DNA of 64,000 nt, from NCBI RefSeq assembly GCF_001750105.1, contig NZ_CP014143.1:1471001-1535000 (forward strand), read 5' to 3'. The stretch comes from Microbulbifer aggregans. Its GTDB lineage: Bacteria > Pseudomonadota > Gammaproteobacteria > Pseudomonadales > Cellvibrionaceae. Positions 4,457 through 27,288 of this stretch are shown here, piece by piece. The stretch's first letter is position 1. Each line of letters begins with the position of its first letter. Below the pieces are notes generated by a model. It worked only from the letters and a program-made list of their open reading frames with translations. It searched no databases and had not been told where the DNA came from. The position numbers and the translations under genes were made by a program.

Positions 4457-5023
4457 ATGAACGAACTGCATGTGCTCACAACCGGCGAAGCAGCACGCTA
4501 CTGCGGGGTCAATTTCCGCACCGTGATTCGCTGGATTGAGCGGGGGCAGCTCAAAGCCTACAAATTGCCGGGTCGTGGAGACCACCGGATCTGCGTCGAG
4601 GATTTCGTGGGGTTCCTGCGGGATAACGCCATGCCGGTGCCAAGCGAACTGGCGGTCGCCAGTCGTAAGGTGCTCCTGCTGACCGCAGATCCGGAGATTG
4701 CTGGAACCGGCCGCCAGGGTCTGCAGCAGGCGGGATGTGAAGTGGAAGTGGCCGGGGATAGCTTTGTAGCCGGTACTATGATGGCGGCCTGCAAGCCGGC
4801 GCTACTGGTACTGGATGCCAACCTGAGCCAGCTGAACGGTTTCCAGATCCTCGATCACCTGCGATCCCGCAGTGAATTCGCCAATATGCATGCGGTAGTC
4901 GTGGCGCCTGCCAATGACCACAATCAGCAGCGCTGGCTCGATGCTGGTGCCGATGCAGTGGTGACCACCCCTGTTGATCGCAACGAGCTAGTGGCCAAGG
5001 TCAAATTGCTGCTGGAAATCTGA
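4457..5023 (+). CDS. Excisionase/MerR-type DNA-binding domain fused to a degenerate receiver domain
   Basis: A 188-residue regulator. Residues 5-55 (LTTGEAARYCGVNFRTVIRWIERGQLKAYKLPG in two parts, ending DHRI) match the small helix-turn-helix used by excisionases and BldC-like proteins. Residues 70-188 form a CheY-like fold. The phospho-acceptor is Asp120 in VLDAN, but the acidic pair is reduced to TADPE and the conserved Lys is Thr171 (VVTTPV), and the usual Thr/Ser is Ala (VVVAPAND). Phosphorylation is therefore doubtful, and the receiver may act by dimerisation or protein contact. The ATG at 4457 has GGGGGA nine bases upstream; an ATG at 4433 lacks one. No kinase gene is adjacent. Target genes are unknown. 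Confidence 0.85.
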   Translation: MNELHVLTTGEAARYCGVNFRTVIRWIERGQLKAYKLPGRGDHRICVEDFVGFLRDNAMPVPSELAVASRKVLLLTADPEIAGTGRQGLQQAGCEVEVAGDSFVAGTMMAACKPALLVLDANLSQLNGFQILDHLRSRSEFANMHAVVVAPANDHNQQRWLDAGADAVVTTPVDRNELVAKVKLLLEI

Positions 5024-5110
5024 TTTCCAGCTTTCGCCGGGGCGGCCGCTCGTGCCGCGCCTGCTGTCTTCCTGGTGTACTCCGACGCCAGAAGCCTTTG
5101 CTGCCGCCGA

Positions 5111-6691
5111 TCAGATCGGTTTTGGGATCAGCATCGGCTCATCTTCACTGTCCATACGGTCACGTCCCTTTTCTGGGCAGTGATAACTGGCTGTGACTTC
5201 ATCATCATGCAAACTGTGCAGGTGCACATCGAAGCCCCACAGGCGGTGTAGGTGTCGCATGACCTCGGGCGAATCCTTTCCCAGTGGGCGGCGACGGTAC
5301 TGGGTGTGGTGCAACGTCAGCGAGCGATCGCCGCGGGTATCCACGGAGTAGACCTGGATATTGGGCTCCCGGTTACCCAGGTTGTACTGGCCTGCCAGGT
5401 CCGCCCTCAGTTGCCGGTAGCCATCTTCGTCGTGGATGGCGCTGACGACAATCTCATTCTCCCGATCGTTGTCACTGATGCAGAACAGTTTCATGTCCCG
5501 CATCACTTTCGGTGACAGAAACTGCAGGATGAAGCTTTCATCTTTGAAGTCGCGCATGGCGAACTGCAGTGTTTCCTTCCAGTTACTACCTGCGATGTCC
5601 GGGAACCACGCCCGGTCTTCGTCCGTTGGCTCCTCACAGATGCGGCGCAGATCGCTGAAGATGCTGAACCCGAGGGTATAGGGGTTGATGCCATTGAAAT
5701 AGGGGCTGTCGAATGGCGGCTGGTAGATCACATTGGTGTGACTCTGCAGGAACTCCATCATGAAGCCCTCGGTCACACGCCCACGGCGATACAGCTCGGA
5801 CAGCAATGTATAGTGCCAGAAGGTGGCCCAGCCTTCGTTCATCACCTGGGTCTGGCGCTGTGGATAGAAATACTGCGCCAGTTTTCGCACGATGCGGACC
5901 AGTTCCCGCTGCCAGTTCTCCAGCAGGGGTGCATTTTTTTCGATGAAATAGAGCAGGTTTTCCTGCGGCTCTTCCGGAAAGCGGTGATCGGGTACCGTTT
6001 CAGGCCCGTTGCCCATCTTGGGAATCGTGCGCCATAGATCGTTCAGTTGGCGCTGGCGGTACTCTTCACGCTCTTTCTGCCGACGCTCCTCTTCCACCGC
6101 CGAAATAGGGTAGGGACGCTTGTAGCGGTCGACGCCATAGTTCATCAATGCGTGACAGGAGTCGAGGATCGCTTCCACCTCCTCCACGCCGTGGCGCTCC
6201 TCGCATCTGGCGATATAGTTTTTGGCAAACAGCAGGTAGTCGATGATGCTGCTGGCATCTGTCCAGCTGCGGAACAGGTAGTTGCCCTTGAAAAAGGAAT
6301 TGTGACCGTAGCTGGCGTGTGCGATCACCAGTGCCTGCATCGTCATGGTGTTTTCTTCCATGAGGTAGGCGATGCAGGGGTTGGAGTTGATGACGATCTC
6401 GTAGGCGAGCCCCATCAGGCCGCGCTGGTAATTGTTTTCGACACTGATGAACTGCTTGCCGAAGGACCAGTGGTTATAGCCCACGGGCATACCGACGGAA
6501 GAGTAGGCATCCATCATCTGTTCTGAGCTGATGATCTCGATCTGGTTAGGATAGGTGTCGAGGCCGAACTCTTCCGCCAGCTGGGCGATGGCACGGTCAT
6601 ACTCCTGAATCAGCTCAAAGGTCCACTCGGAGCTGGTGGAGATCGGCCCTTCCGATTTGGCATCCGGGGCTGTAGGAAACTTATCGAGCAT
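5111..6691 (-). CDS. SpoVR family protein (YcgB-like)
   Basis: Cytoplasmic protein of the SpoVR/YcgB family, 526 residues, close to the usual length of about 510. The family was named for a Bacillus spore cortex gene, but in proteobacteria it forms a stress-response module with a PrkA-type kinase and YeaH. Recognisable conserved stretches are GYNHWSFGKQF near residue 70, INSNPCIAYLMEEN near 105 and NEGWATFWHY near 270. The start ATG at 6691 overlaps the stop of the upstream yeaH-like gene by one base (TAATG), so the two are coupled. The frame extends further upstream inside yeaH without family similarity. Biochemical activity is not established. Confidence 0.93.
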   Translation of the reverse strand: MLDKFPTAPDAKSEGPISTSSEWTFELIQEYDRAIAQLAEEFGLDTYPNQIEIISSEQMMDAYSSVGMPVGYNHWSFGKQFISVENNYQRGLMGLAYEIVINSNPCIAYLMEENTMTMQALVIAHASYGHNSFFKGNYLFRSWTDASSIIDYLLFAKNYIARCEERHGVEEVEAILDSCHALMNYGVDRYKRPYPISAVEEERRQKEREEYRQRQLNDLWRTIPKMGNGPETVPDHRFPEEPQENLLYFIEKNAPLLENWQRELVRIVRKLAQYFYPQRQTQVMNEGWATFWHYTLLSELYRRGRVTEGFMMEFLQSHTNVIYQPPFDSPYFNGINPYTLGFSIFSDLRRICEEPTDEDRAWFPDIAGSNWKETLQFAMRDFKDESFILQFLSPKVMRDMKLFCISDNDRENEIVVSAIHDEDGYRQLRADLAGQYNLGNREPNIQVYSVDTRGDRSLTLHHTQYRRRPLGKDSPEVMRHLHRLWGFDVHLHSLHDDEVTASYHCPEKGRDRMDSEDEPMLIPKPI

Positions 6692-7968
6692 TACGCGGCC
6701 ACCTTCTGGCTGAACAGTTGGCGGAACACCGGGTAGATGTCCTTGAGGTCGACTATCTGCTCCATGGCAAAGTGTTCCGGGAAGATAGCGCGCACGCTTT
6801 CGTACTCCTCCCATAGGGCCTGGTGGTCACGGGGGGTAATCTCCACGTAGGAGAAGTACTGCACGTGAGGCATGATGTCGTCGATCAGGATCTTGTGGCA
6901 GGTACTGGAATCGTCGTTCCAGTTGTCGCCATCAGAAGCCTGGGCGCCGTAGATGTTCCATTCGCTGGCGGGATACCGCTCCTGCATGATGCGGCGCATC
7001 AGTTTCAGTGCACTGGACACAATGGTGCCGCCGGTTTCGCGGGAGTAGAAGAACTCCTCTTCATCCACTTCCTTGGCGCTCGTATGGTGTCTGATAAATA
7101 CCACTTCCGTGTATTCGTAACTCCTTTGCAGAAACAGGTAGAGAAGCAGGAAGAAGCGCTTGGCCATGTCCTTGGTGGCCTGGTTCATGGAACCGGAGAC
7201 ATCCATCAGGCAGAACATGACCGCCTTCGAACGCGGTTTTGGTTGCTTGACCAGCAGGTTGTATTTCAGGTCAAAATCATCGAGGAAAGGCACCTTGTCG
7301 ATACGGGCGCGCAATTCAGCAATACGTTTGCCCAGCGCATCCAGCTTACGCTGGTCCCGTAGGGCGGTTTCTTTGTGCTCCTCGCGCTCGAACTCTTCTT
7401 CCAGTTCACGCAGGTTGCGGCGTTTGCTGCTGGTGAGCGCTATGCGGCGGGCGTTTGCAGCGCGCAGTGAACGCACAACGTTGAGTCGCCCCGGGGTTCC
7501 CTCGTTGCTGAAACCGGCGCGGACCATCTTGAAGGACTCGTTGCCCGCCAGCCGACGTTTGATCATGTTGGGTAGTTGTAATCCCTCGAACATGAAGTCG
7601 AGGAACTCTTCCTGGGAGATCTGGAAGACAAAGTCATCCACCCCCTCGCCACTGTCGCTGGCACCGCCACCTCCGCCGCCACCACCCTGCTGGCCCTGGC
7701 GGGGGATTCGGTCACCGGAGATAAACTCCCGGTTGCCGGGCAGGACGCGCTCTACATGTCCTCCAGGCCCATGATTGAACACCGGTTCGCTGATATCTCT
7801 AGTGGGAATACTGATTCGCTCGCCTTTATCCATATCGGTAATGGAGCGATTGGTCATGGCCTCACCGACGGCCTTTTTGATGTGGGCTTTGTAGCGCCGG
7901 AGGAAACGCTGCCGGTTGACGGTGCTTTTTTTCTTGCCATTCAACCGGCGGTCGATGATGTAGCTCAT
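6691..7968 (-). CDS. yeaH: YeaH/YhbH family protein (DUF444)
   Basis: 425 residues, matching E. coli YeaH (427). The start is [15 protein letters not shown] at 7968. A Gly-rich linker with eight consecutive glycines lies near residues 95-102. The C-terminal half carries a von Willebrand A-like metal site, with DVSGSM near residue 250 and GGTIVSSAL near 310, suggesting a divalent-metal-dependent protein interaction domain. It is the middle gene of the yeaG-yeaH-spoVR operon. In E. coli and Pseudomonas these genes are induced under starvation and stress and act together with the kinase. The exact partner or substrate is unknown. Confidence 0.93.
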
Positions 7969-8030
7969 GTTACTGCCTCTGACCAGTGCGTGGCAGCGGT
8001 GGGTTTGAGGAGGCAGTCGGCGCAGATGGG

Positions 8031-8053
8031 TTCCCACCTGACACTGGTGGGAA
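8031..8053. other. Stem-loop between the kinase and yeaH genes
   Basis: TTCCCACC (8031-8038) and GGTGGGAA (8046-8053) form a perfect 8-bp stem with a 7-base loop in the 161-base gap inside the operon. There is no T-run, so it is more likely an mRNA stability or processing element than a terminator. Confidence 0.5.
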
Positions 8054-8129
8054 ACGCAAATGCTCTGGCTGACTCCTGTCGCCACCGCCGGGCGTGCCTA
8101 AAAGGCGACGCCCCGCGAGTACTGCCGGG

Positions 8130-10052
8130 TTACTGCGACTTGCGGACCCGCAGATACCATTCCGAGAGCAGCCGCACCTGCTTCTCGGTATAGCCCCGCT
8201 CGACCATCCGCGCGACAAAGTCGGCGTGTTTCTTCTGGTCTTCGGCGGAGGCTTTGGTATTGAAGGAAATAACCGGGAGCAGATCCTCGGTATTGGAGAA
8301 CATCTTCTTCTCGATGACGGCGCGCAGTTTTTCGTAGGAGCGCCAGTCCGGGTTTTTGCCCTGATTGTTGGCGCGTGCGCGTAGGACAAAGTTGACGATC
8401 TCGTTGCGGAAATCCTTCGGATTGGAGATGCCGGCAGGCTTCTCGGTTTTTTCCAGTTCCTCGTTGAGTGCGCCACGATCGAGGATCTCGCCGGTCTCCG
8501 GGTCGCGGTATTCCTGGTCCTGGATCCAGAAATCGGCATAAGTCACATAGCGGTCGAAGAGATTCTGGCCGTACTCGGCATAGGATTCGAGATAGGCCGT
8601 CTGAATTTCCTTACCGATGAACTCCACATAGCGTGGAGCCAAATACTCCTTGATGAAGCCGAGGTAGCGCTCCTGCTGTTCCGGTGGGAACTGTTCCTGT
8701 TCAATCTGCTGCTCCAGCACATAAAGCAGGTGGACCGGGTTGGCCGCCACTTCGGTGGCATCGAAGTTGAAGACCTTGGAAAGAATCTTGAACGCGAAAC
8801 GGGTGGAAAGCCCGTTCATGCCCTCATCAACACCGGCGTTGTCGCGATACTCTTGAATCGTCTTTGCTTTGGGGTCGGTATCCTTCAGGTTCTCGCCGTC
8901 ATAAATCCGCATTTTGGAGAACAGGCTGGAATTCTCCGGATCCTTGACTCGTGAAAGCACGGAAAACTGTGCCAGCATGCGCAAAGTGTCTGGGGCGCAA
9001 GGCGCCTTCGACAGCGAGCTGTGCTCCAGTAACTTCTTGTAGATTTTGATCTCCTCCTGCACGCGCACGCAGTAAGGCACCTTGACGATATAGATCCGGT
9101 CGAGGAACGCCTCGTTATTGCGGTTGTTGCGGAAGGACTGCCATTCCGACTCGTTGGAATGGGCGAGAATAATGCCATTGAATGGAATCGAGCCAAGACC
9201 TTCGGTGCTGTTGTAGTTGCCCTCCTGGGTCGCGGTAAGCAGAGGGTGCAGCACCTTGATCGGCGCTTTGAACATTTCGACGAATTCCATCAGACCCTGG
9301 TTGGCCCGACAGAGGCTGCCGGAAAAGCTGTAGGCGTCGGGATCGTTCTGCGGGAAGTCTTCCAGTTTGCGGATATCGATTTTGCCTACCAGAGCGGAGA
9401 TGTCCTGGTTGTTCTCATCGCCGGGCTCGGTCTTGGAGATTGCTACCTGGTCCAGAATCGAGGGCCGGATCTTGACCACCCGGAACTGGCTGATGTCACC
9501 GCGGTATTCGTGCAGGCGTTTGACCGCCCAGGGCGACATAATGGTATTCACGTAGCGCCGGGCGATGCCGTAATCCTCCTCCAGAATCTGGCCGTCTTCA
9601 TCGGGTGAGAACAGGCTCAGAGGAGATTCGAATACTGGCGATCCCTTGATGGCGTAGATGGGGATCTTCTCCATCAATGCTTTCAGTCGCTCCGCCAGCG
9701 ACGACTTGCCACCGCCGACCGGGCCGAGCAGGTAGAGGATCTGCTTCTTCTCCTCCAGGCCCTGGGCGGCATGGCGGAAGAAGGAGACAATCTGCTCGAT
9801 CGCCTCTTCCATGCCATAAAATTCACTGAAGGCGGCGTACCGCTTGATTACCTTATTGGAGAAGATGCGCGACAGGCGTGGATCGCGGGAAGTGTCCACC
9901 AGCTCGGGCTCACCGATGGCCATGAGCATGCGCTCTGCCGGCGAGGCATAAGCACTGCGGTCCTTCTTGCACAGCTCCAGGTACTCCTGGATGCTGAGCT
10001 CTTCATCCTGGATGGCTTCATACCGTTCCAGGTAGTGATTGAAAATCGTCAT
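8130..10052 (-). CDS. yeaG: PrkA-type serine protein kinase
   Basis: AAA-like serine kinase of the PrkA/YeaG family, 640 residues (E. coli YeaG is 644). The N-terminal part is an AAA+ ATPase-type domain with Walker A GPVGGGKSSLAER at about residues 108-120, and the C-terminal part is the PrkA kinase domain. It should autophosphorylate and act in the cytoplasm in nutrient and stress responses. The start MTIFNHYLERYEA at 10052 has AGGGAG upstream with good spacing, so the longer frame is not used. It leads the operon with yeaH and spoVR, 161 bases downstream. In E. coli the operon is RpoS-dependent; I could not identify a convincing sigma S promoter here. Confidence 0.95.
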   Translation of the reverse strand: MTIFNHYLERYEAIQDEELSIQEYLELCKKDRSAYASPAERMLMAIGEPELVDTSRDPRLSRIFSNKVIKRYAAFSEFYGMEEAIEQIVSFFRHAAQGLEEKKQILYLLGPVGGGKSSLAERLKALMEKIPIYAIKGSPVFESPLSLFSPDEDGQILEEDYGIARRYVNTIMSPWAVKRLHEYRGDISQFRVVKIRPSILDQVAISKTEPGDENNQDISALVGKIDIRKLEDFPQNDPDAYSFSGSLCRANQGLMEFVEMFKAPIKVLHPLLTATQEGNYNSTEGLGSIPFNGIILAHSNESEWQSFRNNRNNEAFLDRIYIVKVPYCVRVQEEIKIYKKLLEHSSLSKAPCAPDTLRMLAQFSVLSRVKDPENSSLFSKMRIYDGENLKDTDPKAKTIQEYRDNAGVDEGMNGLSTRFAFKILSKVFNFDATEVAANPVHLLYVLEQQIEQEQFPPEQQERYLGFIKEYLAPRYVEFIGKEIQTAYLESYAEYGQNLFDRYVTYADFWIQDQEYRDPETGEILDRGALNEELEKTEKPAGISNPKDFRNEIVNFVLRARANNQGKNPDWRSYEKLRAVIEKKMFSNTEDLLPVISFNTKASAEDQKKHADFVARMVERGYTEKQVRLLSEWYLRVRKSQ

Positions 10053-21524: not shown

Positions 21525-22190
21525 ATGACGGATTTCAAGATTGCCCCCTCGATTCTCTCCGCCAACTTCGCCCGCTTGGGGGAGGAAGTAGACGCGGTGC
21601 TGGAAGCCGGCGCGGACTGGGTGCACTTCGACGTGATGGACAACCATTACGTCCCCAATCTGACCATTGGGCCCATGGTCTGTCAGGCCCTGCGCAAGCA
21701 TGGCGTCAAGGCGCCGATCGACGTGCACCTGATGGTTGAACCGGTGGACGACATGATCCGCATGTTCGCCGATGCCGGGGCCACCTACATTACGTTTCAC
21801 CCGGAAGCCTCACGCCATGTTGACCGCTCGCTGCAGCTCATCCGCAGTCTCGGCTGCAAGGCCGGGCTGGTGCTGAATCCGGCCACCGGCCTGGACTCGA
21901 TCCGCTATGTGATGGACAAGCTGGATATGCTGCTGCTGATGTCCGTGAACCCCGGATTTGGCGGTCAGAAGTTCATTCCCGCAACCCTGTGCAAGCTGGG
22001 TGAGGCGAGAAAGCTGATTGATGATTCCGGCCTCGACATCCGTCTCGAGATTGATGGTGGCGTGACCCGGGACAATATCGCGGAAATCGCCGCTGCCGGC
22101 GCAGATACCTTTGTGGCCGGCTCCGCGATCTTCAATGCGGAAGATTACGAGGAAGTGATTTCAGCGATGCGCGCGGCGCTGGAAAGTTAG
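21525..22190 (+). CDS. rpe: Ribulose-phosphate 3-epimerase
   Basis: Interconverts ribulose-5-phosphate and xylulose-5-phosphate in the pentose phosphate pathway. The 221-residue TIM barrel begins [15 protein letters not shown] and has the metal-binding [12 protein letters not shown] near residue 35, HLMVEP near 68, the [10 protein letters not shown] loop near 140 and EIDGGV near 178. In many relatives gph (phosphoglycolate phosphatase) lies between rpe and trpE; here it is absent and a leader region follows. Confidence 0.97.
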
Positions 22191-22213
22191 TTTCCTGTCC
22201 TAGGCTCCCCGGT

Positions 22214-22237
22214 TGGCGGGCCAGTGCTTGTCCGCCA
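22214..22237 (+). other. Stem-loop downstream of rpe
   Basis: TGGCGG (22214-22219) pairs with CCGCCA (22232-22237) around a 12-base loop, 24 bases after the rpe stop. There is no T-run. It overlaps the proposed trp -35 element, so it may matter for either rpe mRNA stability or nothing at all. Confidence 0.3.
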
Positions 22238-22256
22238 GCGGCTGGATTTGTAAACT
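22228..22256 (+). promoter_or_regulatory. Probable trp operon promoter
   Basis: TTGTCC (22228-22233), a 17-base spacer and TAAACT (22251-22256). Transcription would start near 22263, about 20 bases before the leader peptide start, the same layout as the E. coli trp leader. A short perfect dyad, CTCGT-ACA-ACGAG (22263-22275), covers the likely start site and the leader Shine-Dalgarno. Confidence 0.55.
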
Positions 22257-22283
22257 TGTCGGCTCGTACAACGAGGCAGTCCC

Positions 22284-22331
22284 GTGAACCCACTCGTCCC
22301 CCACATCTCCAGCTGGCGATGGCGCCGCTGA
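22284..22331 (+). CDS. trpL: trp operon leader peptide with two Trp codons
   Basis: A 15-codon frame starting at GTG with GAGG seven bases upstream encodes MNPLVPHISSWRWRR and stops at TGA. Two of the four residues at positions 11-14 are Trp (codons TGG at 22314 and 22320), a high local density for the rarest amino acid. It lies between a promoter and trpE and is followed by alternative hairpins, as expected for ribosome-mediated attenuation: when charged tRNA-Trp is scarce the ribosome stalls at the Trp codons and changes the RNA fold. The assignment is from position and composition; such leaders share little sequence. Confidence 0.7.
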   Translation: MNPLVPHISSWRWRR

Positions 22332-22340
22332 CCCGCTGAG

Positions 22341-22397
22341 GCCCGCAGTATTGATGCGAGCCCCTTTCCTGCGGGCGGAGTCTGTCTGAACCGCCCG
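22341..22397 (+). promoter_or_regulatory. Mutually exclusive hairpins of the trp attenuator
   Basis: GCCCGCAG (22341-22348) can pair with CTGCGGGC (22369-22376). The alternative CGGGCGG (22372-22378) can pair with CCGCCCG (22391-22397). The two share bases 22372-22376, so only one can form at a time, like the 2:3 and 3:4 stems of a trp attenuator. The second stem is not followed by a T-run, so termination may be Rho-dependent or the control may act on trpE translation, whose start is 57 bases further on. Confidence 0.5.
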
Positions 22398-22454
22398 AGT
22401 TGCCGATACCCCAGGTAATTACTTCGGTAAAAGACCAGAGCACCCGGAGTCGCC

Positions 22455-23966
22455 ATGACACCCAGCGAATACAGCCAACTTGCGTCCGCGGGATACAACC
22501 GTATTCCCCTGGTTCGGCGCGTCTTGGCCGATATTGAGACGCCACTGTCCACCTATTTGAAACTGGCCGCCGGCCGCCACAGCTACCTGTTTGAATCCGT
22601 GCAGGGGGGCGAGAAGTGGGGGCGCTATTCCATTATTGGCCTGCCGGCTCGCACTCTGCTGACGGTCCGCGGGCACGAGGTGACCGTCGAGACCGATGGT
22701 GAGGTCACCGAGCGCCTGCAAAGTGCCGACCCGCTCGCCTTTGTGGAGGAATTCCAGCAGCGCTACCGGGTGCCGGAGCTTCCGGGGCTGCCCCGCTTCA
22801 ACGGCGGGCTGGTCGGGTATTTCGGCTACGATTGCGTGCGCTATATCGAGCCGCGCCTTGCCGATTCGGCACCCCCGGATACCCTGGGTAATCCGGATAT
22901 CCTGTTGATGGTCAGTGACGAGCTGGTGGTGTTCGACAACCTGGCCGGCGCAGTGATTTTTATCGTGCATGCGGATCCTAGCCGGGAGGGAGACTACCAG
23001 CGGGCGCAGCAGCGCCTCGACGGGCTGGTGGAGAAGCTTTCCCAGCCACTGCCGGACACAGTACCCCTGGACCTCGACGGTGCCGGTCTTGATGAAAGCG
23101 CCTTCCGTTCGCACTTCGGTGAGGAGGCCTTCAAGCGCGGCGTCGACAAGGTCAAGGAGTACATCCTCGCCGGCGACGTGATGCAGGTAGTGCCATCGCA
23201 GCGGCTGTCGGCACCGTTCGATGCGCCGCCGCTGAACCTGTACCGGGCGCTGCGCAGTCTCAATCCCTCTCCCTATATGTACTTCCTCGACCTGGGCGAT
23301 CACCAGGTGGTGGGGTCTAGCCCGGAAATCCTCGTGCACCTGGAAGAGGGCGACATGACTGTGCGTCCGTTGGCCGGCACCCGCCGCCGAGGTGCCACTG
23401 AGGCCGAGGACGAGGCACTCGAGCGGGAACTGCTCGCTGACCCGAAGGAAATTGCCGAGCACTTGATGCTGATCGACCTGGGGCGCAACGACGTGGGCCG
23501 GGTGGCCGAGACCGGCAGCGTGAAGGTCACCGAGCAGATGGTGGTGGAACGCTATTCCCACGTCATGCATATCACCTCCAACGTCACCGGGCGCCTGAAA
23601 CAGGGGCTCACGGGCATCGATGCGCTGCGCGCGGCGTTGCCGGCCGGGACGCTCTCCGGTGCCCCCAAGATCCGGGCCATGGAGATCATTGACGAACTGG
23701 AGCCCGAGAAACGGGGCATTTATGGCGGGGCGGTGGGTTACCTGGCCTGGAACGGCAATATGGACACGGCCATCGCCATCCGCACTGCAGTCATCAAGGA
23801 CGGCCAGGTCTTTATCCAGGCCGGAGCCGGTCTGGTGGCTGATTCGGAGCCCCAGGCAGAATGGGACGAGACAATGAACAAGGCCCGGGCGCTATTCCGG
23901 GCCACGGCCATGGCCACCGCTGACAGCGCGCGGCGGGGGCAAGTTGAGGTAGAGCATAATGAGTGA
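22455..23966 (+). CDS. trpE: Anthranilate synthase component I
   Basis: Converts chorismate with ammonia from TrpG to anthranilate, the first step of tryptophan synthesis. The 503-residue protein has an N-terminal regulatory part with HSYLFESV near residue 48 (the LLES-type feedback site) and the chorismate-binding domain, with [10 protein letters not shown] near 300, [18 protein letters not shown] near 330 in two pieces, and [15 protein letters not shown] near 395. The ATG at 22455 has CCGGAG upstream. Its end overlaps the start of an ion channel gene by 8 bases, so the channel is coupled to it. Confidence 0.97.
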
Positions 23967-24831
23967 ATTGTCGGCGCGGCCGGTGTTACCGCTGGCGGAA
24001 ATATGCCAGCGGATAGTCGCAGCCCCCCTGTTCAACCAGGTGATTATCGGTCTGATTCTTCTGAACGGCGTTGCCGTGGGTATGGAGACTTCCACCTGGG
24101 TCACCGAGCGCTTCGGTGATTTCCTGCACGGCATCAATGAGCTGATCCTCGCCGCCTTTGTGGTGGAGGCGCTGGTGAAGATGGCTGCCCACGGCAACCG
24201 ACCATGGCGCTACTTCGCCAGCGGCTGGAACTGTTTCGATTTCACCATCATCGCCCTCAGCCTGATCCCCGCTGCAGGGCCTCTGGCCACCCTGGCGCGC
24301 CTAGTGCGGGTGTTGCGGGTACTGCGCCTGGTTTCTGCATTTCCGGAGCTGCGCCTGCTGGTGGATACCCTGCTGCGCAGCCTGCCGAGCATGTTCCACA
24401 TTGCGCTGTTGATGGGGATCATCTTTTATATATACGGTGTCGCCGGTTATTTTCTTTTTCACGAAATTGACCCGACACACTGGCGGAGCCTGCCGATTGC
24501 ACTGCTGAGCCTGTTTCGTATCGTCACCTTCGAGGACTGGACCGACATCATGTACACCGCCATGGAGGCGATGCCCTGGGCATGGGTGTACTTCGTGAGC
24601 TTTGTGGTCATGGGTGCGTTCGTGATGATCAACCTGTTTATCGGTGTGGTGCTGAACAATCTCGAGGAGGCCAAGTTGCGCCGCCTGGACGAGCTGCAAC
24701 TGCCTCCCAGCCAAACCGAGATATTGCGCGAGCTGCGCGCTACACAAGAAGCCTTGGCCCGTTTGCAGAAGCGTATGCAGGATATACCGCTCGAGCCGGC
24801 AGAGAAGACACCCGGAGGATCTGCGCGATGA
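23959..24831 (+). CDS. Single-domain voltage-gated cation channel (NaChBac-like) inside the trp operon
   Basis: A 290-residue ion transport protein with six membrane segments, expected to work as a tetramer in the inner membrane. The S4 sensor has Arg114, Arg117, Arg120 and Arg123 at three-residue spacing. The pore loop reads T190-F-E-D-W-T-D196. S6 ends [12 protein letters not shown], and a heptad-like coiled coil (about residues 248-275) follows, as in bacterial sodium channels. The sodium channel NavAb has TLESWSM in this position; here Asp stands at positions 193 and 196, the places where acidic substitutions turn NavAb into a calcium channel. Calcium permeability is therefore inferred. 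The gene overlaps trpE by 8 bases and trpG by 4, so it is part of the operon. Confidence 0.9.
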
Positions 24832-25406
24832 TTTTGATGATCGATAACTACGACTCCTTTACCTGGAACGTAGTGCAGTACATGGCGGAGCTGGGTGCGG
24901 ACGTGGTGGTCAAGCGCAACGACGAGATCGCCGTGGCTGATATCGAGGAAATGGCACCGGAGAAAATTGTGATTTCCCCCGGTCCGTGTACGCCCAATGA
25001 GGCGGGTATCTCCCTCGACACCATCCGTCGTTTCGCCGGGCGTACCCCCATTCTGGGGATCTGTTTGGGGCACCAGAGTATCGGCCAGGTGTTTGGCGGG
25101 CGTGTGGTGCGCGCCGGCAAGGTGATGCACGGTAAGACATCTCCCATCGTGCACAACAACCTGGGGGTGTTCCACAACCTGTCGAACCCGTTCGAGGCCA
25201 CCCGCTACCATTCGCTGGTGGTAGAAAAAGGCAGCCTGCCGGATTGCCTGGAGGTCACCGCCTGGACCGAGACCGAGGACGGGGAGATCGATGAGATCAT
25301 GGGGCTGCGTCACCGCGAGCTGGCGGTGGAAGGGGTGCAATTCCATCCCGAGTCGATCCTCACTCAGCACGGCCACGATATGCTGCGCAACTTCCTCGAG
25401 TCCTGA
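24828..25406 (+). CDS. trpG: Anthranilate synthase component II (glutamine amidotransferase)
   Basis: Hydrolyses glutamine and passes ammonia to TrpE. The 192-residue class I amidotransferase has [11 protein letters not shown] at the N-terminus, the nucleophile Cys in [11 protein letters not shown] near residue 80 and the His-Glu pair in GVQFHPESI near 170. Its ATG overlaps the channel gene stop as ATGA and has GGAGGA upstream. In many bacteria TrpG also serves p-aminobenzoate synthesis (PabA); no other copy is in the window to test this. Confidence 0.97.
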
Positions 25407-25447
25407 AGCGACCCGAGTCACTCAACGAAAACAACAAGGGGAGGGGT

Positions 25448-26497
25448 ATGCTGATTCAGGAAGCCATCGCCAAGCTGGTGAATAACGAGCACCTCAGTCG
25501 CGCGGAGATGCGCGAAGTCATGGGACAGATTATGCGCGGCGAGGCCGACGAAGGGCAGATCGCCGGGCTGCTGGTCGCGCTGCGGATCCGTGGCGAAACT
25601 GTCGATGAAATTACCGGCGCCGTGGAGACCATGCGCGAGCTGGCCATCAAGGTCCCCCTGCAGCATGAAAACGCGGTGGATATCGTCGGTACCGGTGGTG
25701 ATGGAGCCAACCTGTTCAATGTCTCCAGTGCCGCCAGCTTCGTAGCGGCTGCCGCTGGTGCCCATGTCGCCAAGCACGGCAACCGCTCTGTCTCTTCCAG
25801 TAGTGGTGCTGCCGATCTGCTGGAGCGGGCCGGTATTTACCTGGAGCTAGACGCCCAACAAGTGGCGCGCTGCATCGATACGATTGGCGTGGGCTTTATG
25901 TTTGCTCCCACTTTTCACCGTGCGGTGCGTCATGCGGTGGGGCCGCGCCGTGCGCTCGGCATGCGCACGATTTTCAATTTGCTCGGCCCGCTGACCAATC
26001 CGGCCGGGGTCAAGCGTCAGGTTATCGGTGTCTACGACCGAGCCTACTGCCGCATGCTGGCAGAGGTACTGCAAACCCTGGGCTCTGAACACGTGCTGGT
26101 CATCCACAGTGATGACGGCCTCGACGAGATGAGTCTCGCTGCCGATACCTATGCCGTCGAACTGAAGGGCGGTGAACTGCTCGAGCGCACATTGCGCCCG
26201 GAGGACTTCGGCATTGAGCGCCGTAGTCTGGAAGGCCTCTGTGTCGATGGTGCGGCGCAGTCACTGGCATTGATTCAGGACGCGCTGGGCAAGCGCCAGT
26301 CCGAAGTTGCAGACAAAGCCGCCGATCTGATTGCACTGAATGCAGGTCTGGCGATCTATGTCAGCGGTTTGGCCGACTCGGCCGAGCAGGGCGTGGCCAT
26401 GGCTCAGGATGCCATTGCCAGTGGTCTGGCGGCAGAAAAGATCAATGATCTCGCTGCTTTCACCAGTGCCTTCCGGCCCGAGGAGGTAGGCCAGTGA
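25448..26497 (+). CDS. trpD: Anthranilate phosphoribosyltransferase
   Basis: Transfers phosphoribose from PRPP to anthranilate, the second committed step of tryptophan synthesis. The 349-residue protein has the PRPP-binding [14 protein letters not shown] near residue 80 and [18 protein letters not shown] near 110, plus LGPLTNPA near 180. It follows trpG after 41 bases and has AAGGGGAGG upstream of its ATG. Its last codon overlaps trpC as GTGA. Confidence 0.97.
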
Positions 26498-27288
26498 GTA
26501 CCCCGACCATCCTGAAGACCATTGTCGAGCGCAAGTGGCAAGAGGTTGACGAGCGCAGCCGAGTGCTTCCATTGGCCGACGTGCGGGAACGCGCACTGGC
26601 GCAGTCACCGGCGCGGGGATTTGTCACTGCCATCGAGCAAAAGATTGCTGCCGGTGAGGCTGCAGTCATCGCGGAAATCAAAAAGGCCTCGCCAAGCAAG
26701 GGCGTGATCCGGGAGGATTTTATTCCCGCGGAGATCGCCACCAGCTATGAGAAGGGCGGCGCAGCCTGTCTGTCAGTGCTCACCGATGTGGATTTTTTCC
26801 AGGGCGCTGATGCCTATCTGCAGCAGGCCCGCAGTGCAGTGCGGCTGCCGGTACTGCGCAAGGACTTTACCGTTGATCCTTACCAGGTCTATGAAGCCCG
26901 TGCCCTTGGTGCCGACTGCATCCTGCTGATCGCTGCCTGCCTCGAAGATGGGCAGATGCGCGATCTCAACGGCCTGGCCCAGGAGGTCGGCCTGGATGTA
27001 TTGGTGGAAGTGCACGATGGTGAAGAGCTGGAGCGGGCTCTGGCGCTGCCCAACCGCCTGATCGGTATCAACAACCGCAACCTGCACACCTTCGATGTGC
27101 AGCTGGAAACGACTTTTCAGCTGCTGGATCGTATCCCGGACGACCGCATTGTGGTGACCGAGAGCGGCATCCATACCACAGACGATGTAGCGGCCATGCG
27201 CGGTCACGATGTACACGCGTTCCTGGTCGGTGAGGCCTTTATGCGGGACAAGGAACCCGGGCGCCGCCTGCTGGAGATGTTCAACTGA
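26494..27288 (+). CDS. trpC: Indole-3-glycerol phosphate synthase
   Basis: Closes the ring of carboxyphenylamino-deoxyribulose phosphate to indole-glycerol phosphate. This 264-residue form lacks the fused TrpF domain seen in E. coli, so TrpF must be encoded elsewhere. [11 protein letters not shown] near residue 60, the catalytic Lys in [11 protein letters not shown] near 125, IGINNRNL near 190 and TESGI near 220 are visible. The GTG start overlaps the trpD stop and has AGGAGG upstream. It is the last gene before a strong terminator; trpF, trpB and trpA are not in this operon. Confidence 0.97.

Follow-up and report, generated by a model that had tools for sequence, protein, structure and literature searches.

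Why should a voltage-gated cation channel be encoded inside an operon for tryptophan biosynthesis, and does such a position tie the channel to tryptophan itself or only to the expression of its neighbours? The question is raised by a locus of Microbulbifer aggregans, analysed here within a window of 64,000 nucleotides (the whole stretch of DNA considered), in which the channel gene stands between trpE and trpG. A literature search of open-access papers, with most subscription papers outside its scope, returned no paper on a channel in the trp operon. To our knowledge, the role that voltage-gated channels play in bacterial life is still largely an open question. The channel considered here keeps its place in an operon of which the regulation is known from other bacteria, and its expression is therefore probably tunable by tryptophan supply; such tunable expression, together with natural channel-less relatives in the genus (4 of 48 genomes), makes its physiology directly testable. 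The locus also shows that a textbook biosynthetic operon can stably harbour a membrane channel among its internal cistrons. From our analysis it seems rather probable that the channel is an old, selected passenger of the trp operon, co-expressed with it, for which no tie to tryptophan is required.

Arrangement of the trp operon

The channel gene (positions 23959-24831, plus strand) is an intact open reading frame of 290 amino acids with an ATG start, which shares 8 bases with trpE and 4 with trpG. On the same strand, trpE, anthranilate synthase component I (22455-23966), matches TIGR00564 with 580.8 bits (cut-off 517.7) and possesses the Pfam domains Anth_synt_I_N and Chorismate_bind, and trpG, the glutamine amidotransferase component (24828-25406), matches TIGR00566 with 285.7 bits (cut-off 121.05) and the Pfam GATase domain. 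Two further plus-strand open reading frames, 25448-26497 and 26494-27288, we take to be trpD and trpC from the general order of trp genes. The original prediction of a complete single-domain channel gene between trpE and trpG, overlapping both, is borne out by the reading frame and by the Pfam and TIGR matches. Viewed from rpe upstream to trpD and trpC downstream, the channel gene is contiguous with the trp genes, lies on their strand and keeps this place in relatives, as would be expected of a cistron of the trp operon.

Among 27 Microbulbifer loci the channel stop overlaps the trpG start by 4 bases (ATGA) in 24; in the remaining three the overlap is 1 base (two loci) or the genes stand 12 bases apart (one). 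Because the channel stop overlaps the trpG start, and this ATGA is conserved, translation of trpG is probably coupled to that of the channel. The overlap with trpE is found in 14 of the 27 loci, with 1-72 bases between the genes in the rest, the start codons being of our choice. A scan that covers the sigma-70 consensus only detected no sigma-70-like site in 22190-25460, where shuffled sequences gave 1.0 on average, and an internal promoter inside trpE is, within that scope, possible. On its observed position and conservation, the channel gene may be regarded as an integral cistron of trpE-channel-trpG-trpD-trpC, whose transcription would come from the trp promoter, downstream of a leader peptide with Trp codons. 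Co-expression of the channel with trpE and trpG is likely on these grounds, and the channel level should follow expression of the trp operon.

The channel protein and its selectivity filter

Pfam recognises Ion_trans (PF00520) at residues 23-241 with an E value of 6.5e-51; NCBIfam assigned the protein to no family, while it named trpE and trpG above their cut-offs. The protein shows the features of the PF00520/BacNav superfamily, namely six transmembrane helices, S4 arginines and an acidic filter in the pore loop. The S4 voltage-sensor segment was located by alignments at residues 112-125 (24292-24333, plus strand), and its residue 114 and arginines R117, R120 and R123 are invariant in 18 aligned sequences (the window channel and 17 relatives); in a wider alignment the first S4 arginine is missing from two loci (L089 and L090), the S4 arginines being otherwise conserved. 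An AlphaFold2 model built from the 18 sequences has a mean pLDDT of 79 and a pTM of 0.56, and its best PDB matches by Foldseek are NavMs, CavAb, NavAb, NaChBac and NavCt. The fold is shared with NavAb, NavMs and the engineered CavAb at 30-34% identity, and the Bacillus-type BacNavs NaChBac and NavCt reach 40-41% identity in the fold match. By sequence, the nearest bacterial solved structures are NavCt (4bgn, E 4.9e-56) and NaChBac (6vwx, E 9.3e-51), and the channel also matches repeats in calcium and sodium channels of eukaryotes, the T-type calcium channels ranking first. The filters of NaChBac and NavCt are of the TLESW kind, with fewer acidic residues.

According to alignments and to a comparison with PMC7041947, the selectivity filter of the window channel is TFEDWTD (residues 190-196; 24526-24546, plus strand), which differs from the TLESW-type filter of canonical NavAb-like BacNavs and from the TLESWS filters of three NavAb-like rows in our control set. 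The AnclNav group was defined around the TLESW motif with additional acidic residues (Shimomura et al. 2020, PMC7041947), and TFEDWTD has this form. According to the same paper, NavPp of Plesiocystis pacifica, with the filter TLEDWTD, is permeable to Na+ and blocked by Ca2+, CavMr of Meiothermus ruber, with TLEGWVD, is Ca2+ selective, and Ca2+-selective NavAb mutants were obtained where acidic residues were added to the filter; AnclNavs of H. elongata and T. turnerae, whose filters are similar to that of NavPp, gave undetectable currents in Sf9 cells (PMC7041947). Like NavPp and CavMr, the window channel is single-domain with six helices. Its filter is one position apart from that of NavPp: almost every Microbulbifer row has F at position 2, where NavPp has L, and D stands at position 4 as in NavPp, not G as in CavMr, so that a Na+ channel blocked by Ca2+ is no less plausible than a Ca2+-selective one. 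Since NavPp, CavMr and the two current-less AnclNavs behave differently, the permeating ion is not nameable from sequence alone. What sets the window channel apart from these AnclNavs is its place in the trp operon; the words "operon" and "gene cluster" are absent from the main text of PMC7041947.

The filter TFEDWTD occurs in 57 of 58 Microbulbifer rows (repeats included), the other being TLEDWTD, and each of the 46 rows that come neither from Microbulbifer nor from the control set has TLEDWTD. As many as 17 of 20 control channels share TFEDWTD (the other 3 are of the TLESWS type), so the filter alone does not mark out the clade of the window channel. A use of these controls as "canonical" channels was rejected, their filters revealing other AnclNav-like and NavAb-like clades. 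In the channel tree, which comprises no Bacillus, NavPp or CavMr rows and carries a long-branch warning, the window clade stands apart from the three NavAb-like rows.

Taking together the reading frame, Pfam, alignments and fold, we annotate the gene product as a putative single-domain voltage-gated cation channel with an AnclNav-like filter, a predicted subunit of a channel that would be homotetrameric by analogy with its family. It would belong to the ancestor-like BacNav kind of voltage-gated channels of Na+/Ca2+ type, its selectivity and voltage dependence being predictions only. The second Ion_trans gene in this genome (L002:1353-2208) reads by eye as a K+-channel type with a TVGYG filter.

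Conservation within Microbulbifer

Of 48 genomes of the genus, 46 have some channel match and 44 have one at 81% identity or above; in these 44, judged by coordinates, the channel is flanked by trpE and trpG. The order trpE-channel-trpG was confirmed by tblastn on DNA in all 30 fetched genus loci and in all 26 loci of named Microbulbifer. The channel is therefore anything but absent from close relatives; its absence from all of them would have told against the lasting co-expression that was originally proposed. This proposal gains support from the 44 of 48 genomes, from the ATGA junction in 24 of 27 loci and from the same gene order in other gammaproteobacteria.

Four genomes (G033, G034, G036 and G044) have trpE and trpG without the channel. 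In G034 the space between them holds a mini-ORF with a channel-like N-terminal start and C-terminal end that runs by ATGA into trpG, and its DNA aligns to that of an intact locus (L037) over 114 bases at 84%, of which about 75 belong to the channel end and the rest to trpG. Judging from this deletion scar, the channel was lost secondarily from at least one of these genomes. In G044 the N-terminus has left a fainter trace, visible in protein letters only, and a clear channel trace was not found in the trpE-trpG space of G033 and G036. As a separate observation, the trpE gene of G034 (L111:3172-4673) consists of two overlapping pieces that are out of frame with each other, through a frameshift or an assembly error.

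Occurrence outside the genus

A first collection of 48 related loci comprised 26 from Microbulbifer at 80% identity or above and 22 from outside the genus at 51-61%. The survey was extended to samples of the taxonomic order (390 genomes) and class (369 genomes), where the best candidates, six at most per genome, were scored. Channels of the clade score at E 1e-108 or better, with the exception of a contig-end fragment (G154), as against 1e-60 to 1e-78 for other channels; two genomes, G704 and G808 (loci L108 and L109), score between, at 1e-96 to 1e-98, and as these loci fall with the controls in the channel tree, they were left out of both clade and control counts. Trp-linked clade channels were seen in 18 of the 390 genomes sampled for the order, 10 of which are Microbulbifer, and, with the window's own genome set aside, in 4 of the 369 sampled for the class; the trpE-channel arrangement is thus uncommon overall.

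The fetched sets of 22 and 29 loci, minus four duplicates and L108 and L109, leave 45 distinct clade loci outside Microbulbifer. In 20 of them the channel is the next gene after trpE and shares its strand (L059, L060, L065, L069, L070, L072, L073, L074, L076, L077, L080, L083, L085, L086, L089, L090, L092, L099, L100 and L101), and these are partly dependent, L069, L072 and L073 being near-copies, as are L100 and L101. They are mostly metagenome-assembled and include two Parendozoicomonas loci, a Litoricola MAG and family f41. Since the neighbourhood recurs in some distant gammaproteobacteria, it appears to be an old and maintained arrangement. The next gene is not always trpG: in five loci (L083, L089, L090, L072 and L073) the order is trpE-channel-amidohydrolase-like, with a protein of 1080-1140 amino acids replacing trpG (in L089, at 4996-9083, it has WD40-like propeller and amidohydrolase domains and a start/stop overlap with the channel), and L070 has trpE-channel-glyoxalase-like-trpG.

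The other 25 loci, all five acidobacterial ones among them, have no adjoining trpE or trpG within the available sequence, which is short in some. One such channel relative abuts purL (L098:5038-9717), another stands 45 bases behind phosphoenolpyruvate carboxylase, ppc (L106:4900-8586), and in L107 and L075 an ORF of equal length and near-identical start precedes the channel by 50 and 34 bases, resembling the arrangement in L106; the channel of L095 overlaps a downstream mlaA, and other unlinked channels stand apart. In view of the purL and ppc placements, the clade may favour sites behind large housekeeping genes. Among 15 trpE loci from genomes with unlinked channels (those of L108 and L109 included), trpG follows trpE in 11 and was unseen in the available sequence after trpE in the other four, one of which is short.

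In 20 loci of other channel clades, chosen by us from the match lists and not at random, neither trpE nor trpG was found within about 5 kb. A phylum sample of 299 genomes contained 26 with matches at E 1e-126 or below from family f240, which belongs to another class and is absent from the tree; in its 18 fetched loci (L178-L195) no trp genes were seen within up to 1.5 kb. Two side observations may be added. In G808 a more distant AnclNav-like channel (L109:4355-5862) lies divergently beside trpG, at about 125-140 bases, with the trpE match on another contig, and in G393 and G462 (L087 and L088; 95-96% completeness) a channel is kept with no trpE candidate.

It is on channel relatives behind purL, behind ppc or with neither neighbour that the passenger reading is based. 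Most likely, the operon would provide a membrane channel with steady expression linked to growth, and the channel's own job, presumably Na+/Ca2+ influx on depolarisation in the service of ion or pH homeostasis, motility or electrical signalling, would need no chemistry in common with tryptophan.

Descent and selection

Trees were built for the channel (78 rows, by a quick method with a long-branch warning) and for trpE (75 rows, with 31 of 72 inner branches weak). The trpE tree groups mostly the same lineages as the channel tree, in which linked and unlinked members intermingle; by parsimony the linked state changes 8 times. Patristic distances of channel and trpE correlate with rho 0.71 over 29 linked rows and 0.56 over 19 linked rows with one Microbulbifer, and with rho 0.49 over 34 clade genomes and 0.74 over the 32 that remain without L108 and L109; 0 of 2000 permutations reached the observed rho in each set. 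The broad agreement of the two trees argues for long inheritance, not recent insertion, and favours a long common descent of trpE and channel. According to this view, the pair would be old and inherited with trpE through several gammaproteobacterial lineages, with losses. The linkage may be ancestral or may have arisen several times; whole-block transfer is compatible with the trees as well, and an older block transfer is possible.

The median dN/dS over 10 relatives is 0.076 for the channel, next to 0.070 for trpE, 0.054 for trpG, 0.096 for trpD and 0.077 for trpC; these values are rough, as dS is high and, in four of the five genes, one saturated pair was counted as zero. The channel frame is therefore not a chance one, and purifying selection acts on it.

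Could the arrangement reflect nothing else than inertia of gene order, the channel having settled behind trpE by chance and stayed there because rearrangement is rare, with its expression incidental? The trees fit common descent, and the same conservatism is seen upstream: of the 46 loci where 500 bases or more ahead of trpE were available, channel or not, 43 have rpe and/or gph, unrelated to tryptophan, within about 2 kb (the exceptions are L059, L100 and L101), and these genes are more faithful neighbours of trpE than the channel is. Against pure inertia, the tight overlaps with both neighbours and the ATGA kept even in the deletion scar suggest that expression coupling matters, and the linked loci recur across the tree with the 8 changes of state mentioned. 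We consider inertia by itself unlikely, though worth keeping in mind. The scattered occurrence of linked loci in the clade might also reflect selection acting time and again for this position, something not required if the channel is only a passenger.

Leader peptide and the question of a tryptophan signal

It was originally suggested that the channel shares the attenuator of the tryptophan genes. Upstream of trpE we find a candidate trp leader peptide, MNPLVPHISSWRWRR, with a GTG start (22284-22331, plus strand), recognised by its W-R-W codons and by alignment and ending in SWRWRR; among 31 Microbulbifer loci, 30 share such a leader with W-R-W close to the end, the four channel-less ones included, and in L051 the first Trp codon is altered. 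The tandem or near-tandem Trp codons that distinguish a leader ORF of a trp attenuator are hence present in the genus, as ahead of trpE in known leader-attenuated operons. Outside the genus a leader ORF with at least two Trp codons was seen in 6 of 12 linked loci (L059, L070, L086, L090, L100 and L101; W-R-W in L059, L090, L100 and L101), and a Trp-rich leader ORF was not found in the other six (L083, L084, L085, L089, L092 and L099). The putative Trp leader is thus well founded within the genus and uncertain where trpE and channel are linked elsewhere.

The leader part of the suggestion stands within the genus, and the attenuator itself is less clear. Two mutually exclusive inverted repeats, noted by eye at 22341-22397 on the plus strand (pairs 22341-22348/22369-22376 and 22372-22378/22391-22397), are possible attenuator arms with no U-run after them; a scan for terminator-like sites gave no intrinsic terminator with a U-run on the plus strand of the leader, and no Rfam trp leader matched it. 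In these two respects, and by the membrane channel cistron inside it, the window operon differs from known leader-attenuated trp operons. Since the scan picked out no intrinsic terminator, it is possible that the leader does not attenuate, and we regard attenuation of the window operon as no more than plausible. The Trp_repressor Pfam family of TrpR had no match in the genome (the control was positive in E. coli and B. subtilis), nor did tryptophanase (indole).

If the leader does attenuate, one may imagine a functional coupling in which loss of charged tRNA-Trp raises channel density and so gives rise to excitability or to a Na+/Ca2+ signal of starvation; starvation-triggered electrical signalling in Bacillus biofilms offers an analogy. 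Consistent with such a coupling are the Trp leader in the genus and Trp-rich leader ORFs in half of the other linked loci examined, linkage in lineages of the window's own order and of other orders of the class, and the trpE-channel order kept in the six loci where trpG does not adjoin, for which reason we leave the idea open at a low probability. It is weakened by the 25 of 45 clade loci outside the genus that are not trp-linked, some being behind purL or ppc, by the six linked loci with no Trp-rich leader ORF found, and by the four channel-less genomes of the genus; we regard it as improbable. We give still less credence to a purposeful wiring of the trp operon to the channel in Microbulbifer, and maybe in further gammaproteobacteria, where falling charged tRNA-Trp would release the leader, raise channel density and alter excitability or influx, though if it were true, a metabolic attenuator would set the electrical behaviour of a bacterium. 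Because of the relatives behind purL and ppc, the losses and the more faithful rpe and gph, we do not claim a tryptophan function for the channel and prefer to see it as a co-expressed passenger.

The trpE-trpG gap as a possible insertion site

The gap between trpE and trpG had also been proposed to be a place that accepts insertions, and the family gives this some substance. In a sample of 144 family genomes (trpG found in 140 and trpE in 121 at the thresholds used), six genera (L115-L120) have trpE and trpG 6-9 kb apart, and the gaps of three (L116, L117 and L119) hold other genes, which differ in content or orientation; no known RNA genes were detected at the gathering threshold in the gaps of the six. 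Among the matches listed, viewed by eye, none of 96 family genomes of other genera has a channel between trpE and trpG, and their best channels there are 35-42% identical and located elsewhere. A recent horizontal insertion into a permissive gap in Microbulbifer alone, which these gaps and absences might recommend, is very improbable and was rejected as largely refuted by the distant occurrences (f41, Parendozoicomonas, the Litoricola MAG and others), the broad agreement of channel and trpE trees, purifying selection and a channel GC of 0.586 and GC3 of 0.745 near those of neighbouring genes. The gap may be permissive in the family, and the trees favour long inheritance of this particular occupant. 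In P. aeruginosa the same gap carries the R/F pyocin genes; foreign genes are found there too, but as a phage-like cluster, as against one overlapping cistron kept across a genus.
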